A stretch of 64,000 bases of DNA, taken from Paucidesulfovibrio gracilis DSM 16080. Its GTDB lineage: Bacteria; Desulfobacterota; Desulfovibrionia; Desulfovibrionales; Desulfovibrionaceae. The position numbers were made by a program, and so were the translations under genes. Shown here piece after piece: positions 51,165 through 58,721 of the stretch (position 1 is its first letter; each line of letters starts with the position of its first letter). Where the stretch lies: assembly GCF_900167125.1 (NCBI RefSeq), contig NZ_FUYC01000008.1:1-64000 (forward strand). Direction: 5' to 3'. Below the pieces are notes generated by a model. It saw nothing but the letters and a program-made list of their open reading frames with translations. It was not told the DNA's origin and did not search any database.

Positions 51165-52622
51165 ATGACAAACAACGAACACCCCATTCAACGGATAACC
51201 TACGCGGCCCCGCCCACACTGACCCGTTTTCACGCATCGGACGCCTTTTACCGAGGCGTCATGGGACCGGTGGGGTCGGGCAAGTCCACGGCCATGTGCA
51301 TGGAGCTGATGCGGCGCGCCCAGGCCCAGCAACCCGGACCGGACGGCATGCGCCGTTCCCGCTTCGCCATTGTGCGCAACACCTACCGGGAGCTGGCAGA
51401 CACCACGCTCAAGACCTGGCTGGACTGGTTTCCCGAAGACCTCTTCGGCCAGTACAACCAGACCGGCATGACCCACACCGTACGTTTCGGGGACGTGCAT
51501 GCGGAATTCATGTTCCGCTCACTGGACCGGCCCGGGGACGTAAAAAAGCTGCTTTCCCTGGAGCTGACCGGCGCCTGGTTCAATGAATGCCGGGAAATGC
51601 CCAAAGCCATCGTGGACGCCATGGGCGACCGGGTGGAGCGCTTTCCGCCCCGGCGCATGGGCGGCTGTTCCTGGGCGGGCGTGATCATGGACACCAACCC
51701 CCCGGACACGGACCATTGGTGGTATCGCCTCGCCGAGGAGGACCGCCCCCGGGGATGGGCGTTCTTCCGGCAACCGGGCGGCCTGCTTGAAAAAGGGGAG
51801 GAAAACGGACGCCCACGTTTTGCGCCCAATCCCAATGCCGAAAACCTGACCAACCTGCCGGAGCAGTATTATCTGCGGCGCATGGCCGGAAAGCCAGCGG
51901 ATCACATCCGCGTCTATTACTGCGCCAAATACGGCAGCGTACAGGACGGCAAGCCCGTGTTTCCGGAATTTCACGCCACTGTGCATGTTGCTTCCACGCC
52001 CTTGCGCGCCCGGCCCGAATCGCCGCTGTTCGTGGGCCTGGATTTCGGGCTGACCCCGGCGGCCGTGTTTGGTCAGCGGGAGATCAACGGGCGCTGGCTC
52101 TGGCTCGGGGAACTTGTGGCCGAGGACATGGGCATGACCCGTTTTGCCCGGGAATTGCGCCGAACCCTCAACGAACGCTGGCCGGGAATGGAGGTGGTTC
52201 TGTACGGCGACCCTGCGGGAACCCAACGCTCCCAGGTGGACGAGCGCACACCGTTCGACATCCTTCGCGCCGGAGGCATTGATGCCAGGCCCGCTCCCAG
52301 CAATGATCCCCTGCTGCGGCGCGAAGCCGTGGCCCTGCCCCTCACGCGCATGGTGGACGGCGGTCCGGGACTGCTGACCTCGCCGGAATGCCGCACGCTC
52401 ATCAAAGGCATGTGCGGCGCATATCGCTACCGGCGCGTGGAGATCAGCGGGGAGGAACGGTACAAGGATGAACCGGACAAAAATCGCTATTCCCACGTCT
52501 GCGATGCGGCCCAATACCTGATGATCGGGGCGGGAGAAGGTCGCGCCGTGCTTGGACGCGATGCCGGACCGCGCCCGGCCCGGGCGGAAAACCACTATAA
52601 TCCGTTTCGTAGAAGCGTATGA
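51165..52622 (+). CDS. Phage terminase large subunit
   Basis: A 485-residue packaging motor. The ATPase Walker A is GPVGSGKS (34-41), with an Arg-rich strand RFAIVRNTYREL after it, and GAWFNECREM as Walker B with catalytic Glu (about 137). The RNase H-fold nuclease begins with VGLDFGLTPAAVFGQ (Asp near 290), with a second acidic set around YGDPAG and HVCDAAQYLM. All catalytic parts are present. The next gene overlaps by 4 bp. No portal, protease or capsid gene follows, which is unusual. Confidence 0.88.
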   Translation: MTNNEHPIQRITYAAPPTLTRFHASDAFYRGVMGPVGSGKSTAMCMELMRRAQAQQPGPDGMRRSRFAIVRNTYRELADTTLKTWLDWFPEDLFGQYNQTGMTHTVRFGDVHAEFMFRSLDRPGDVKKLLSLELTGAWFNECREMPKAIVDAMGDRVERFPPRRMGGCSWAGVIMDTNPPDTDHWWYRLAEEDRPRGWAFFRQPGGLLEKGEENGRPRFAPNPNAENLTNLPEQYYLRRMAGKPADHIRVYYCAKYGSVQDGKPVFPEFHATVHVASTPLRARPESPLFVGLDFGLTPAAVFGQREINGRWLWLGELVAEDMGMTRFARELRRTLNERWPGMEVVLYGDPAGTQRSQVDERTPFDILRAGGIDARPAPSNDPLLRREAVALPLTRMVDGGPGLLTSPECRTLIKGMCGAYRYRRVEISGEERYKDEPDKNRYSHVCDAAQYLMIGAGEGRAVLGRDAGPRPARAENHYNPFRRSV

Positions 52623-53068
52623 GCATGCAGGGATTGCTTTGTGCGCCGCCCTGCCATGCCCATTTCCCGGCCGGGGAGTACGCCTTTTTGCGCCTGTTTG
52701 ACGCGCATGGCACCTATGCCCTGGCTGCCGTGGCAGAACGGACCGTGTGCGCAGAACTCCACCTGGAGGTGGTCCGGCCCGGACCACGGGCCATGCGCGG
52801 CATGGTCGCGGATCTGGAGCTGTTTCGCCAGCGCATGGCAAAAAAGGGGATCATGAGAATCGTCGGGTTACGGCAGATTTCCGATTTGAACGCGGCTTCC
52901 GATGCACAAGCCCAGGATCGCTGGTTCCGGTTCACCCGCGCATTCGGCTTTACCGAACAAAGCCTGGTGCAGACCGCCTTTTTGGATACGGACGCCAGGC
53001 CGAAGCGTCACATCTCCGGCCCGGAAAACAGGGACCAGGTCTCGCAATGCCGCCACACCCGGGAATAA
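52619..53068 (+). CDS. Phage-associated protein, C-terminus probably chimeric
   Basis: A 149-residue protein. Its core (about 5-125) has TYALAAVAERTVCAELHLEVVRPGP and a FTRAFGFTEQSLVQ end with a GNAT-like feel, as in some phage proteins found after terminases. The last 20 residues (RPKRHISGPENRDQVSQCRH) are antisense to the 3' end of the TRAP gene, with a 61-bp overlap. This suggests that the phage sequence was cut near 53.0 kb and the stop is now supplied by host DNA. Confidence 0.6.
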   Translation: MSMQGLLCAPPCHAHFPAGEYAFLRLFDAHGTYALAAVAERTVCAELHLEVVRPGPRAMRGMVADLELFRQRMAKKGIMRIVGLRQISDLNAASDAQAQDRWFRFTRAFGFTEQSLVQTAFLDTDARPKRHISGPENRDQVSQCRHTRE

Positions 53069-54066
53069 TCCTCGCTGATACTGCGGCAGAGCGGGCAGGT
53101 GGCCGCCAGTTCGTTCACCACCTCCTGGCTGATCATCCACATGCGGTTCAGGAAGCTGTCCGGCAAGACCTGGACCCAGACCTCGGGCAACTGACGCAGG
53201 GAGCTGAGCGAAAGCGCGTTCAGGGTATCGAACCGGGCCTGCATCCAAAGATCGGTTTCCGCGGCGGCAGCGCGCAGGGCCGCCTGTTGCGACACGGTGA
53301 GCTTGTCCATGGCCGTCCGATTGACCAACGTCTCCAACCGGCCGGACGGTTCCTGCCATCCCGGACCATAATACCAGACCGGGGATTGGGCCAGCCCGAG
53401 CTGCATGTCATGATGCGGACCGATCCAGTTCACGCCGTCCAGAGCGCCGGAAGCAAAGGCTTCGCTCAATTCCTGAGCAGGCATCAGGGAGACATCCGCC
53501 CCCACGCGCTGGAGCACGCGGCCCGCCAGACCCGGGAACCGCAGTTTGCGGCCCTTGAGATCCTCCACCGTTTCCAATGGCTTGCGGAACCAGCCGAACA
53601 TCTGCCCGCCCGTATCCCCCATGGGCAAAGGAATCACGCCGTAAGGCTCATACGCTTTTTCCCAGAGGCGCAGCCCCTGGCCGTCGTACAACCAGGAATT
53701 GAGGCAATTTTTGTCCATGCCGAACGGCACCGAGGAAAACCACTGGGCAGCGGGAATCTCTTCCGCCCAATAATACGCGGTGGAATGCCCCATCTCGGCC
53801 CGCCCCTCGGCAACGGCCTGAAAGACCTCCAACGGTCCGGCCAGGTCACCGGCGGGAAGCGGGGTGATCTGCAAGGTGTTATCCGTCAGCTGGGCCACGC
53901 GGCGGCAAAACCGCGACAACCCCGGCCAGAACACATCCATGTCCCGGTTCCAGGCCGTGACCATGCGCCACTCCAGGCGCTGTCCGGCCCGGGCCGGAAC
54001 CGCCATTGATCCGGCCGCGCCCACGGCGGCCATTCCCAATGTTTTGAGCAAATCCCTTCGGCGCAT
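53008..54066 (-). CDS. TRAP transporter solute-binding protein (DctP), orphan
   Basis: A 352-residue periplasmic binding protein. A Tat-like signal (MRRRDLLKTLGMAAVGAAG) is followed by LEWRMVTAWNRDMDVFWPG, PLPAGDLAGPLEVFQAVAEGRAEMGHSTAYYWAEE, LKGRKLRFPGLAGRVLQRVGA (the carboxylate-binding Arg) and SGALDGVNWIGPHHD. This is the branch of large TRAP binding proteins for keto acids and similar compounds. No DctQ or DctM membrane subunits are nearby. Start 54066 has GGGGG upstream. Confidence 0.92.
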   Translation of the reverse strand: MRRRDLLKTLGMAAVGAAGSMAVPARAGQRLEWRMVTAWNRDMDVFWPGLSRFCRRVAQLTDNTLQITPLPAGDLAGPLEVFQAVAEGRAEMGHSTAYYWAEEIPAAQWFSSVPFGMDKNCLNSWLYDGQGLRLWEKAYEPYGVIPLPMGDTGGQMFGWFRKPLETVEDLKGRKLRFPGLAGRVLQRVGADVSLMPAQELSEAFASGALDGVNWIGPHHDMQLGLAQSPVWYYGPGWQEPSGRLETLVNRTAMDKLTVSQQAALRAAAAETDLWMQARFDTLNALSLSSLRQLPEVWVQVLPDSFLNRMWMISQEVVNELAATCPLCRSISEDYSRVWRHCETWSLFSGPEM

Positions 54067-54114: not shown

Positions 54115-54495
54115 TCAACGATTGCGGTAATATTTCACGCTGTCCCCGCCCTGGCCCTTTCCCAGGTTGGGATAGTGCCGCACATAATCCCGCGTGCAGC
54201 GCAGATAGCACGCATTGTATCGGTCCTCCTGGGCCAGACGGCGGCGCTGCTGCGCCGCGCTCTCCCCGGCCTGGTACCGTAGGGACGGCTTGGGACAGGC
54301 CGCGATGCAGCGTTGTTCCTGCCGCTTCCAGTCCGCCGGTCCCTGGGCATGGGCGGCGTCGGCCCCAGCCCCGGCCAGACCCAAAACCAACAGCACCAAA
54401 AGCATTGGTCCCACGGCCCGTGCCGGACCGGTCCCTTGGGCTTGTTCGCGCGTGCTCCAGGCGCATGCGGTCCCGTGGATCGTGCGTTCACACAT
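54115..54495 (-). CDS. Secreted twin CX3C protein, copy A
   Basis: A 126-residue protein. A signal peptide spans about residues 31-50 (MLLVLLVLGLAGAGADAAHA). The start is uncertain; ATG 54405 would begin at the signal. The mature part holds WKRQEQRCIAACP (C63, C67) and RYNACYLRC (C96, C100), a twin CX3C motif with 28 residues between the pairs, in a predicted helical hairpin. The motif and surrounding residues recur in the gene at 57633-58007. Two disulfides holding the hairpin are likely (inference). Function unknown. Confidence 0.75.
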   Translation of the reverse strand: MCERTIHGTACAWSTREQAQGTGPARAVGPMLLVLLVLGLAGAGADAAHAQGPADWKRQEQRCIAACPKPSLRYQAGESAAQQRRRLAQEDRYNACYLRCTRDYVRHYPNLGKGQGGDSVKYYRNR

Positions 54496-54644
54496 ACTGT
54501 AACCATGCCGTCACGGGCCTCGGGAGTCAACAGGGGAACGGGGCTGTGCTTCGTTGGGAAAACTGGTATGCCTCGTGCATCAAAGGGACACATGCAGGGA
54601 TTCCTTGTGTCCGGACACAGCGCTGACACTCTTCCGGAGGTGGT

Positions 54645-55418
54645 ATGACCCGTTTTTTCGGCGTGTTCGCATTCCTGGCGGCCCTGGTTTTGGGCGGCTT
54701 TCTCTTGGTCGGAAATTTGACGTCCGGCATGTCTGAAAATGCAAACGCATTCTTCCAAACCGTGCGGGACGGACAGTACGACACCGCTTACAATTATCTC
54801 TCCAAAGGGTTTCGCAATACCGTGACGCCGAGGGAACTTCGCGCGTTTTTGCGGCGCGGCTCCCTGGACCGCTACATGACCTCGGCCTGGACTTCCAGGG
54901 AATACGACGGAGACACCGGACTGCTCAAAGGAACCCTCTACGCCCAGGACGGAACCGTCACGCCCCTGGAACTGACCTTTGTCCGTGAAAACGAGGAATG
55001 GCGCATTCACTTCATTGATGCCCGTCTGCCCGGACTGGCGCGGCGGGAGATCACCAAGGACATTCCGGACCAGGAAGTGCTGGAACGCATGGCCTCGGAC
55101 ACGGCGGCCCTGTTCGCCGAAGCGGTTCGGCTGAAGGATTTCCATCGCTTTCACGACGAGATCGCCCGCATCTGGGCCTGCCGTGCCACCCCCGAGGAGC
55201 TTATGGAGGCTTTTGCCCCGTTCCTGGCCGGGAAATCCGACCTCACGGGGTATGACCAAGTGGCCCCTGTTTTTAGTGAACCCCCGGTCATCAACGCGGA
55301 AGACGCGCTCGTGCTCAAGGGATACTTCCCGCATGAACGCGGGCCGCTGCGCTTTCGCATGGAATTCGTGTTCGAGTACCCGGAATGGAAACTCCGGGGC
55401 ATCGACATGCGCATTTGA
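54645..55418 (+). CDS. Membrane-anchored protein with duplicated NTF2-like domain
   Basis: A 257-residue protein not recognised by family. One N-terminal TM (4-24) anchors it. Two similar halves follow, each with a helical start (ENANAFFQTVRDGQYDTAYNYLS and ASDTAALFAEAVRLKDFHRFHDEI) and a beta sheet end (LTFVRENEEWRIHFIDAR and FRMEFVFEYPEWKLRGIDMRI), the NTF2/DUF4864-like layout. GGAGG precedes the ATG. It is 2 bp before the HEAT-Sel1 gene, so the two are translationally coupled. Confidence 0.75.
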   Translation: MTRFFGVFAFLAALVLGGFLLVGNLTSGMSENANAFFQTVRDGQYDTAYNYLSKGFRNTVTPRELRAFLRRGSLDRYMTSAWTSREYDGDTGLLKGTLYAQDGTVTPLELTFVRENEEWRIHFIDARLPGLARREITKDIPDQEVLERMASDTAALFAEAVRLKDFHRFHDEIARIWACRATPEELMEAFAPFLAGKSDLTGYDQVAPVFSEPPVINAEDALVLKGYFPHERGPLRFRMEFVFEYPEWKLRGIDMRI

Positions 55419-55420
55419 CC

Positions 55421-57610
55421 ATGCTCCGCATCCTCGTTTGCAGCACGTTTCTCTTTCTCCTCGCCCTTGCCTGGGTTCCGGCCCATGCCGATGGCGACGC
55501 GCCCACGGCCGACCTGATCCGCCGCCTGAACGACGAAAACGCGGACGTTGCCCGCAACGCATTTGACGAACTGGTGCGCCGCGGAACCGAAGCCGTACCC
55601 GAGCTGATCAAAACCCTGCGCGGCACCAACCGGTCCCTGCGCGGCGCCGCCACCCGCGTACTGGCGCGCATCGGCGCTCCCGCCGTACCCGAGCTGGCCC
55701 GGACCTTGGAGGATCAGGCCCGGTCCGCCCGCATTCAGGCGGGCATTGCCTTGGGCCTCATGGGCAGCACAGCCTCGGACGCGGTGCGCCCCCTTTCCCG
55801 CGCCCTGCACGACCATGTGGAAGACGTTCGCGGCAATGCCGCGGCTGCGCTGGCGGAAATCGGCGCGGACTCCGAACCGGCGGTTGCGGACCTGCAACGG
55901 ATATTGGCTGATCCCAGTCCCTGGGTGCGCCGCAATGCGGCCCTGGCTCTTGGACGCATCGGCCCGGGAGCACGCCCTGCCATGGCAGCCCTGCTGGAAA
56001 CCGCCACGCAGGATCGCAGTTCCAAGGTGCGCTCTGAGGCGGTACGCGCTCTGCCCCGCATTGATTCGGAGCATCCCGAGCTGCTGCCCAGCCTGAAAAA
56101 AATCACAACCACCGACACCTCCCAGGCTGTGCGGGATGCTGCATCGGAAATCCTGGAAGACTTGCTCTCCAAGGAACAAGAAGATCGGAATGAATCGATA
56201 ACTGACGATGTAACCTCGGATTCCGCCCTTGCCGACGACCCGGAACGCTCCCAGAGCGGGCAATCCGTGGCCCAACTCGTACGCCGGTTGCAAGGCGAAG
56301 AAACGCCGGCGCAGGCCGCGGCCCAGGAACTGAAGCAGCGAGGTGCCGACGCTGTTCCGGCTCTGGCCTGGGCCTTGGACGGCAATGATGCCACCCTGCG
56401 CCGAAGAGCCGCCAGCGTACTCGCGGCCCTGGGAGAACAAAGCGCCCCGGCCCGCGCCGCTTTGGGCCGCGCCCTCAGCGATGTGGATGCTCGCGTGCGT
56501 GAGCAGGCCGCCCGCGCTCTCGGCGCCATGGGTCAAACAGGTCTGCGCGCCTTGCCCCAGCTCGCCCGCGCCCTTTCCGATGCCGATCCTCTGGTCCGCA
56601 CGGCCGCAGCGCAATCGTTGGCCGGTTTCGACCACGAACTGCCCGAGGCGGTTCCCGGCCTGACCGACGTGCTTTCCACGGGACCGGATGCGGCCCGGGT
56701 GGCGGCCTGCCGGGCCTTGGGCAACACCGGTCCCCGCGCCGCCCAGAGCGTCACCGCCCTTACGGACGCCCTGACCCTGGGTGATCCAAAGGTCCGAGCA
56801 GCAGCAGCGCAAGCCCTGGGCAACATTGGTCCCCTCTCTCTTGCGGCCCTGCCCCGCCTGCGCGGACTGGCCCACGATCCAAATTCCAGCGTGCGATCGG
56901 CCGCCCTGAACGCCATTCGCTCCATATCGCCGTCCGCCACACTGCCGGCCCAGCCCACGGACCCGGCAATACCGGACACCGGCACACCGCAGCCCCCCCA
57001 AGACCCTTCCATGGACGGCTCGGCCCGGGACGATCAACAAACCGACACCCCGTGGCCCACGTCCCTCCAGGATTTGGAGCCGGATCCGCGCTACCCGGAT
57101 TTTCCTGTCTCCGTCACGGACTCGCCCGAACCGACACCTCCGGCAACGCCTGTTATTCCTGCGCCCCAAAAACCCGACACACCCCAGACGCCGCCAGTTA
57201 CGGCGCTTCCGGACCTTGCCCAGCCCTCCCCTGCCGCGCCGGACCCTGCGGGCAGCCCCCAGGCGCATCTCTTTGCTCAGGCCAGAAAGCTCTACGCCTC
57301 GGGTCGATACGAGGACGCGGCCCAAACCCTGCGCCAAGGCGCGGAAACGGACCACTCCCCTTCGCAGGTACTATTGGGCATGCTTTTTCGTGAAGGGCGC
57401 GGCGTGGACAAAGACAATGAGGAAGCTTTACGCTGGTTCCGCCACGCCTCGGCTCTGGGCGACGCCGCTGGCTACTACAACATGGGCTGGATGTATGAAC
57501 ACGGGTTGGGAGTGCCTCGGGATGTGGACGCGGCCCGGCGCTGGTATGAACGCGCCGCCAAGCGCGGCCATCCCGCTGCCGGGGATCGGCTCAAGGCCAT
57601 GCGCGAGTAA
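55421..57610 (+). CDS. Secreted HEAT-repeat / Sel1-repeat fusion protein
   Basis: A 729-residue exported protein (signal peptide 1-23). It has two blocks of HEAT repeats (about 25-245 and 275-515), with repeated motifs such as VRRNAALALGRIG, VREQAARALGAMG and VRAAAAQALGNIG. A Pro/Thr-rich linker spans about 520-625. Two Sel1 repeats follow (about 650-725: GMLFREGRGVDKDNEEALRWFRHAS and GWMYEHGLGVPRDVDAARRWYERAA). All parts are protein-binding scaffolds. The codons run continuously with no frameshift. Its role is unknown; it is coupled to the NTF2-like gene and followed 22 bp later by twin CX3C copy B. Confidence 0.88.
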   Translation: MLRILVCSTFLFLLALAWVPAHADGDAPTADLIRRLNDENADVARNAFDELVRRGTEAVPELIKTLRGTNRSLRGAATRVLARIGAPAVPELARTLEDQARSARIQAGIALGLMGSTASDAVRPLSRALHDHVEDVRGNAAAALAEIGADSEPAVADLQRILADPSPWVRRNAALALGRIGPGARPAMAALLETATQDRSSKVRSEAVRALPRIDSEHPELLPSLKKITTTDTSQAVRDAASEILEDLLSKEQEDRNESITDDVTSDSALADDPERSQSGQSVAQLVRRLQGEETPAQAAAQELKQRGADAVPALAWALDGNDATLRRRAASVLAALGEQSAPARAALGRALSDVDARVREQAARALGAMGQTGLRALPQLARALSDADPLVRTAAAQSLAGFDHELPEAVPGLTDVLSTGPDAARVAACRALGNTGPRAAQSVTALTDALTLGDPKVRAAAAQALGNIGPLSLAALPRLRGLAHDPNSSVRSAALNAIRSISPSATLPAQPTDPAIPDTGTPQPPQDPSMDGSARDDQQTDTPWPTSLQDLEPDPRYPDFPVSVTDSPEPTPPATPVIPAPQKPDTPQTPPVTALPDLAQPSPAAPDPAGSPQAHLFAQARKLYASGRYEDAAQTLRQGAETDHSPSQVLLGMLFREGRGVDKDNEEALRWFRHASALGDAAGYYNMGWMYEHGLGVPRDVDAARRWYERAAKRGHPAAGDRLKAMRE

Positions 57611-57632
57611 CGGACAGGCAAGGAGACGACGC

Positions 57633-58007
57633 ATGAACATCCGGACCGGACCACTTTCCGATCGATCCCGCCCAGGCCGTTTTCTCTCCCGAGCGCAAGG
57701 TCTGCTCCCGGGCGCGGCGTTGCTTCTCTTGGTCCTGCTGCTGCATCCAGGCGCGGCCGAGTCCCGCGGATTTCCCAACGCCCGCTGGAAGGCGGAGGAA
57801 CAGCGCTGCATTGCGGCCTGCCCCTCATTTCCACGCTTTTCCGGCACGGAGACACCGGCCCAGTATCAACGCCGCATTGCCGCGGAAAACGCCTACAACC
57901 GTTGCTATGCCCGTTGCATCCGGCAATATCAGGAACGGGTGCTGCTGCCCCGGGAACCTTATGACGACGGGAGCCAGGGCTACCTACGGCGCAATGGCGG
58001 CAACTGA
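57633..58007 (+). CDS. Secreted twin CX3C protein, copy B
   Basis: A 124-residue protein. A signal/TM segment lies at about 24-42 (LLPGAALLLLVLLLHPGAA). The mature part has WKAEEQRCIAACP (C59, C63) and AYNRCYARC (C91, C95), 27 residues between pairs. It shares the pattern W-K-x2-E-Q-R-C-I-A-A-C-P...Y-N-x-C-Y-x-R-C with copy A. AAGGAGA precedes the ATG, 22 bp after the HEAT-Sel1 gene, so it is in the same operon. Confidence 0.8.
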   Translation: MNIRTGPLSDRSRPGRFLSRAQGLLPGAALLLLVLLLHPGAAESRGFPNARWKAEEQRCIAACPSFPRFSGTETPAQYQRRIAAENAYNRCYARCIRQYQERVLLPREPYDDGSQGYLRRNGGN

Positions 58008-58010
58008 CGC

Positions 58011-58721
58011 CTATTTTCCCTGGTTTACCTCTCGGGCCAGGTCGTATTGCAGCACGATCCATTCGCGGTCATCGGCGTCGTGCAACAGGGCCAGGGCGGC
58101 CTGTCGCGTGTCGGGCCGGGCCATACCGAGCAAATCCCGCACATCGGCTGCCTTTTTCAAGGCCTGATGCACTCCGGAACGTTCCAAAAACACGTACACC
58201 AACTCCCGCCGCTGCATGGCGCGGGTCTCATATTCGGTCATCTGCTTGGAGGCGTACCCCGCATGCGGCGCATTCCGCCACAGGGCCACCAGATCCAGGG
58301 TCGGTTCCGAGGACTGCAGGGCCACCAGTTCAAAACGCTCGTCCAACGCCGCAAACGCCCGCACATACACGGACCGCACAAACGGCGTACGCAGGGAAAC
58401 ACTTCGCAATCCCTGCTGGTCAAACGCGAAATCCATGTCCCAGCCATGGTCCAGATAGCGCGCCCCGTTCCGGCACACCGCTTCGGAACCGAGTTGTTCC
58501 GCGCAGTCAAAGGCTCCCGGCAACTCCAACACCCGCTCCCGGGGCATGCCCCGGACATAGTTCTCAAACAATATGATTTGGGAATCCGCCCGCCCTGGCA
58601 GCGCGGGCCAAAGCAAGCACACGGCCAGCGCACAAAGCAGCACCCGGGCCGCAGCGGATTTCAGGCAGGGACAACCAGCAGACAAGGGGATCCGCTGTAA
58701 GGGACACGGAACCAGGGCCAT
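58011..58721 (-). CDS. Secreted protein of unknown function
   Basis: A 236-residue protein. GGAGG fixes the start at 58721, giving a long n-region before the signal core (about 25-45, ARVLLCALAVCLLWPALPGRA). The mature part contains FENYVRGMPRERVLELPGAFDC and a second cysteine in EAVCRNG. No family recognised. It converges on twin CX3C copy B with 3 bp between stops, so it belongs to the same neighbourhood of exported proteins. Confidence 0.75.
   Translation of the reverse strand: MALVPCPLQRIPLSAGCPCLKSAAARVLLCALAVCLLWPALPGRADSQIILFENYVRGMPRERVLELPGAFDCAEQLGSEAVCRNGARYLDHGWDMDFAFDQQGLRSVSLRTPFVRSVYVRAFAALDERFELVALQSSEPTLDLVALWRNAPHAGYASKQMTEYETRAMQRRELVYVFLERSGVHQALKKAADVRDLLGMARPDTRQAALALLHDADDREWIVLQYDLAREVNQGK

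Follow-up and report, generated by a model that had tools for sequence, protein, structure and literature searches.

A conserved gene unit encoding NTF2-like, HEAT-Sel1 and twin-CX3C proteins, and an unnamed twin-CX3C family, in the Desulfovibrionaceae

Organization of the locus

The window, a stretch of 64,000 nucleotides from a bacterium of the Desulfovibrio group with a 3.18-Mb genome, includes two divergent groups of genes whose products comprise small proteins with paired CX3C motifs, a duplicated NTF2-like protein, and a large HEAT-Sel1 repeat protein (Table 1). Export of these products was judged by eye from N-terminal hydrophobic segments. A preliminary description of the locus had proposed five adjacent genes, with tight spacing between those on the plus strand; all five open reading frames lie where it had placed them, and the measured gaps, 2 bp from the NTF2-like gene to HEAT-Sel1 and 22 bp from HEAT-Sel1 to copy B, agree with the proposed spacing. 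The start codon of copy A is uncertain, with a candidate internal start near 54405.

Table 1. Features of the locus in window coordinates
Feature	Positions	Strand	Basis
DctP-type TRAP solute-binding protein	53008..54066	-	PF03480; Tat-like start MRRRDLLK
Twin CX3C copy A, small predicted exported protein	54115..54495	-	Open reading frame, homologue alignment
Conserved intergenic block separating A from NTF2, control region	54502..54579		Three- and four-species alignments
Duplicated NTF2-like protein, N-terminal hydrophobic helix	54645..55418	+	Weak DUF4864 match, fold alignments, orthologues
HEAT-Sel1 protein, predicted exported	55421..57610	+	Domain models; start taken as internal ATG at 55421
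Linker motif WPTSLxDLxPDPRYPDF in HEAT-Sel1, residues 545-561	57053..57103	+	Orthologue alignment
Twin CX3C copy B, third and final gene of the unit	57633..58007	+	Open reading frame, homologues, structure model
Further protein (fifth gene)	58011..58721	-	Convergent with B

A gene for a DctP-type TRAP solute-binding protein (109.3 bits for PF03480, cut-off 23.4), which had been overlooked earlier, lies 48 bp downstream of copy A on the same strand. This arrangement is kept in three species, and copy A and DctP are likely co-transcribed; the DctP proteins beside copy A in two congeners, G054 and G013, show 74% and 70% identity. Upstream of DctP, window positions 51165-53068 encode the large subunit of a phage-type terminase and hold a small second gene next to it. 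The terminase has kept its position in G054 and G013 (84% and 79% identity), as has the small gene, and these phage-type genes represent a conserved phage remnant or a domesticated cassette.

At the opposite end, the fifth gene had been counted as a member of the same system. It is encoded on the minus strand, convergent with copy B, and its orthologues lie on another contig in G054 and about 40 kb away in G013, with none found in the other genera tested. With its orthologues elsewhere in both congeners, the fifth gene was rejected as a member of the system.

The non-coding block between copy A and the NTF2-like gene is conserved within the genus and partly in G022, a genome of another genus. 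Its minus strand includes the element TTGACT-N17-CATGGT, invariant in the genus, and its plus strand a sigma54-like site, TGGTATG-N5-TGCA (54564-54579), present in three species. The sigma54 consensus for Desulfovibrio has been published as tGGcacg / tTGCt (PMC4641369). A sigma54 promoter for the NTF2-like gene was considered and dropped, since the TGG-N10-GC element is missing in the fourth species, G022, and equal scores are common: 38 sites in the window, this one included, score at least as high.

The HEAT-Sel1 and NTF2-like proteins

The HEAT-Sel1 fusion proposed at the outset is borne out by domain models far above their cut-offs, HEAT_2 at 195 bits (E=2e-58, cut-off 27.7) and Sel1 at 69.6 bits (E=2e-19, cut-off 30.7). 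Two HEAT arrays, at approximately residues 28-262 and 285-508, are followed by a proline-rich linker and then by Sel1 repeats at residues 616-725. The closest PDB sequences, designed alphaRep and other HEAT and Sel1 repeat proteins, are generic repeats, and PADLOC matched the protein by HEAT-repeat models only, with no match for A, B, the NTF2-like protein, or the fifth gene. Conservation is strongest at residues 110-149, within the first HEAT array, and one peptide of the otherwise variable linker (Table 1) is conserved in the genus and degenerate in G022 (WTASPEDLEPAPWLPKDL). Judged from sequence conservation, residues 110-149 and the linker peptide are candidate binding sites.

The NTF2-like protein is matched in its N-terminal half by DUF4864 (PF16156) at 26.4 bits, borderline below the cut-off of 27.1, and NCBIfam, PHROGs, and PADLOC gave no match specific to it. 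An AlphaFold2 model built from two sequences (mean pLDDT 57) has three helices followed by strands, repeated twice. When this low-confidence model was compared using VIA-align, residues 24-127 aligned with the NTF2-fold design 6w3f (Z 7.9, 4.2 Å, 101 residues) and residues 140-257 with the NTF2-like structure 3blz (Z 8.2, 3.9 Å, 107 residues). Membership of both halves in the NTF2-like superfamily is supported by the helices-then-sheet cone fold of the model, and the duplication claimed earlier agrees with the fold alignments at this low confidence; the two halves show no similarity to each other by BLASTP. Orthologues of the protein are 81, 77, and 47% identical.

A family of twin-CX3C proteins

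Copies A and B both contain the twin CX3C motif that had been ascribed to them (CIAAC...CYLRC in A, CIAAC...CYARC in B), with 27-28 residues between the Cys pairs; shuffled sequences of A or B hold such a motif in 0.07-0.08% of cases each. Across 14 Desulfovibrionaceae homologues the four Cys are invariant, as are E56, E73, and R81 (B numbering), most of the homologues share the C-terminal tail DGSxxYxxRN, and their alignment includes a conserved loop, CPxFPRFxGxE. Modelled from four sequences (mean pLDDT 73), mature B is predicted to form a helical hairpin in which helices 6-19 and 33-62 carry the Cys pairs, with the tail at low confidence. A Foldseek search with B gave no match at E<0.001, and no PDB entry resembled it significantly.

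Neither A nor B matches a Pfam family above cut-off, an NCBIfam family, or a PHROG. With a profile of the family (A1), 13 genomes out of 297 from the order were found to have members; these represent 7 of the 55 genera, and all 7 belong to one taxonomic family. A search of 395 genomes from 252 genera of the phylum gave no match outside the source genome. These proteins constitute an unnamed twin-CX3C family, judged to be exported and so far seen in the Desulfovibrionaceae only. The copy A paralogue is found in this genus only (its orthologues in G054 and G013 are 84-85% identical over residues 48-126), and a tree of A, B, a third paralogue, C, and the proteins of a genus designated g28 is mostly unresolved.

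The family also occurs in no fewer than five further neighbourhoods that are unrelated to one another, and in other genera it is present without HEAT-Sel1, so that proteins of the A/B type are not obligate HEAT-Sel1 partners. Paralogue C (L024, L025, L026), present in G000 (contig C3, near 93875) and in both congeners, precedes a PAS histidine kinase gene and is divergent from a gene for a bacterial alpha-2-macroglobulin, which in G000 adjoins a gene of Transgly + Transpeptidase composition (PBP1C-like). In g28 (L027, L028, L029), a PF00912 transglycosylase gene immediately precedes the homologue, with a 45-bp gap or a 4-bp overlap, and distant homologues adjoin a CheW-response-regulator gene and other genes. 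Two of the family's settings touch peptidoglycan glycosyltransferases, an association that is suggestive only.

Conservation and distribution of the unit

The order NTF2-HEAT-Sel1-B and its close spacing are kept in all four genomes that have the NTF2-like gene: three of three species examined in the genus (the source genome, G054, and G013) and G022. Across the four, gaps range from 2 to 18 bp between the NTF2-like and HEAT-Sel1 genes and from 3 to 22 bp between HEAT-Sel1 and B. Both congeners have the same layout as the window, with A divergent from NTF2-HEAT-Sel1-B and DctP after A. In G022 the three genes are separated by 18 and 3 bp, A and DctP are absent from its 14-kb contig, and the neighbourhood is also without the phage genes. 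The conserved unit is NTF2-HEAT-Sel1-B and, within the genus, also A-DctP. For a neighbourhood shared by all of the genes first proposed, the outcome is divided: the three-gene unit is kept in two genera, with A-DctP beside it in one, but the fifth gene falls outside it and the CX3C family recurs in the unrelated settings described above.

Full-length HEAT-Sel1 orthologues were found, among 12 genomes tested, only in G013, G054, and G022 besides the source, the others giving generic HEAT or Sel1 matches only. An NTF2 profile applied to 307 genomes of the class gave matches confined to the genus, G022 having been left out as it falls under the completeness filter of that search, and a contig scan for wider distribution had a sole match, one Desulfovibrio MAG contig. 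As the unit occurs in just four genomes, of which two are incomplete, its co-occurrence represents few independent events. Within the genus, the NTF2-like protein, HEAT-Sel1, A, and B are all under purifying selection (pN/pS 0.19-0.53), and divergence is quicker in HEAT-Sel1 (58-59% identity) than in its partners (77-81% for the NTF2-like protein).

After copy B, L022 (4284-6522) and L023 (2-2232) carry in the same order a lipoprotein-like gene, a gene for a small exported protein, which in L023 is CarboxypepD_reg-like, and one for a CheB-type regulator; two genera share this series, whereas in the window B lacks these neighbours. In G013 and G022, the surroundings of the module also include small lipoprotein-like genes ending in a WKxC-type motif (L022 12143-12607, L023 6426-7436), for which no Pfam match was found.

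The initial view of the system as undescribed stands, with A and B outside any Pfam, NCBIfam, or PHROGs family and the NTF2-like protein outside any NCBIfam or PHROGs family. Literature searches for twin CX3C systems in bacteria, or for HEAT-Sel1 systems in the periplasm, found nothing of substance and no description of this one, and no known system with this gene set was found.

Functional interpretation

The locus contains a lineage-restricted conserved unit that combines known folds with an unnamed small exported family, and the products of its three genes probably act jointly in the cell envelope. The leading mechanism, put forward tentatively and somewhat short of probable, is that the NTF2-like, HEAT-Sel1, and B genes constitute a short operon whose products would build an assembly in the envelope on HEAT-Sel1, with B as a disulfide-locked adaptor. 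The NTF2-like protein would have its N-terminal helix in the inner membrane and its two NTF2 domains in the periplasm, and HEAT-Sel1 would be a secreted alpha-solenoid scaffold. Once exported, B would be oxidised by a DsbA-type enzyme to give a disulfide-locked helical hairpin; the genome has a DsbA-family gene, which would permit disulfide formation. The hairpin would then attach to the solenoid, either as a client or in the role of a small adaptor, its conserved tail DGSxxYxxRN staying free. Copy A would belong to a second unit with the TRAP-type binding protein, and since that unit is divergent from the first, the two may be co-regulated. Periplasmic location, disulfides, physical contact, co-regulation, and any chaperone-like role are the presumptive parts of this scheme, which is supported by gene order, spacing, selection, the invariant residues, the model of B, and the conserved divergent control region. 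Counting against it are the small number of genomes, the occurrence of the CX3C family beside unrelated genes elsewhere, and the faster divergence of HEAT-Sel1.

The main rival to scaffold assembly is a cell-wall accessory role, possible but rather unlikely, in which the CX3C proteins would be stand-alone periplasmic accessory or stress proteins, involved in peptidoglycan synthesis or envelope defence, that have spread among operons by duplication. HEAT-Sel1 and the NTF2-like protein would form a separate pair with which B is only co-transcribed. The transglycosylase gene preceding the g28 homologue is consistent with such a role, as are the histidine kinase and alpha-2-macroglobulin genes by paralogue C, with the PBP1C-like gene next to the latter, and the chemotaxis and other genes adjoining more distant homologues. 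However, the window locus has no peptidoglycan gene in or beside it, B remains with HEAT-Sel1 in the second genus, and the peptidoglycan settings occur in two lineages only, so that the association may be due to chance.

It is also conceivable, if improbable, that these are independent envelope proteins with no joint function, adjacent by common descent in a shallow lineage. The unit is present in two genera only, and the upstream phage-type genes and DctP have also been kept in place, so some of this synteny is simply inherited; yet in G022, where these genes and A are absent from the neighbourhood, NTF2-HEAT-Sel1-B stays together at short spacing.

The boldest form of the scaffold proposal, to which little probability is attached, is a periplasmic machine in which CX3C hairpins would dock on the HEAT-Sel1 solenoid, membrane-tied by the doubled NTF2-like protein, to serve as adaptors or as chaperones of the small-Tim kind, while paralogues would have found further use next to the TRAP binding protein, the histidine kinase and alpha-2-macroglobulin, and the peptidoglycan glycosyltransferases. 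Another reading, with only a slim chance of being correct, would make A and B convergent bacterial counterparts of the mitochondrial small Tim chaperones, shielding periplasmic hydrophobic clients with HEAT-Sel1 as their platform. The twin CX3C helical hairpin would fit this role, and there are weak, non-significant echoes of Tim9 (3dxr; sequence E=0.52, Foldseek E=7.7; Z 3.1 and rmsd 6.3 over 65 residues for the B model, a chance-level match) and a chance-level match to the periplasmic chaperone Spy (Z 4.4). Helical hairpins, however, give such matches by chance, and the Tim10/DDP Pfam model (PF02953) reaches only 11.7 bits for B against a cut-off of 22.3, with no match for A. The stretch between Cys pairs is also longer in A and B than in small Tims, where it spans approximately 11-16 residues. 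It is very improbable that A and B act after secretion as inhibitors or as antimicrobial hairpin peptides comparable to alpha-hairpinins, with which they would share a four-Cys helix-loop-helix layout (PMC11591084), and to which the conserved loop and the neighbour of paralogue C, alpha-2-macroglobulin being a protease-trap family, could also point, but A and B are longer, have a conserved C-terminal tail and no immunity-like gene, and gave no match in a defence library.

If, as the scaffold proposal would have it, the unit forms a complex, it would represent a new envelope scaffold and bacterial twin-CX3C hairpins with dedicated partners. Even without a complex, an unnamed twin-CX3C family has been outlined, in the Desulfovibrionaceae only so far, whose neighbours (transglycosylase, PBP1C/alpha-2-macroglobulin, and TRAP binding protein) suggest envelope roles.

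Comparison with known systems

Each component has recognizable relatives from which it departs in particular ways. The weak DUF4864 match of its N-terminal half relates the NTF2-like protein to DUF4864/DUF4878 NTF2-like proteins, whereas here two NTF2-like domains lie in tandem in a protein that scores below the curated cut-off and has no NCBIfam match. HEAT-Sel1 is clearly a member of both alpha-solenoid repeat families (PF13646 and PF08238); it differs in joining two HEAT arrays to Sel1 repeats through a Pro-rich linker that carries a conserved peptide, all within a single predicted exported protein, with full-length orthologues in just two genera among those tested. The gene beside A encodes, by Pfam, a TRAP solute-binding protein (DctP, PF03480), but no DctQM membrane genes adjoin it in the stretches read, and its apparent operon partner is instead a twin-CX3C protein. 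Alpha-hairpinins likewise have two CX3C pairs in a helix-loop-helix, although they are shorter, plant peptides with no detected sequence relation to A or B. Small Tims (Tim9/Tim10, PF02953), which are hexameric holdase chaperones, are similar in their two CX3C pairs, in the helical hairpin modelled for B, and in a presumed oxidising compartment, whereas A and B differ from them in a longer inter-Cys stretch, a conserved C-terminal tail, and a predicted bacterial export signal.
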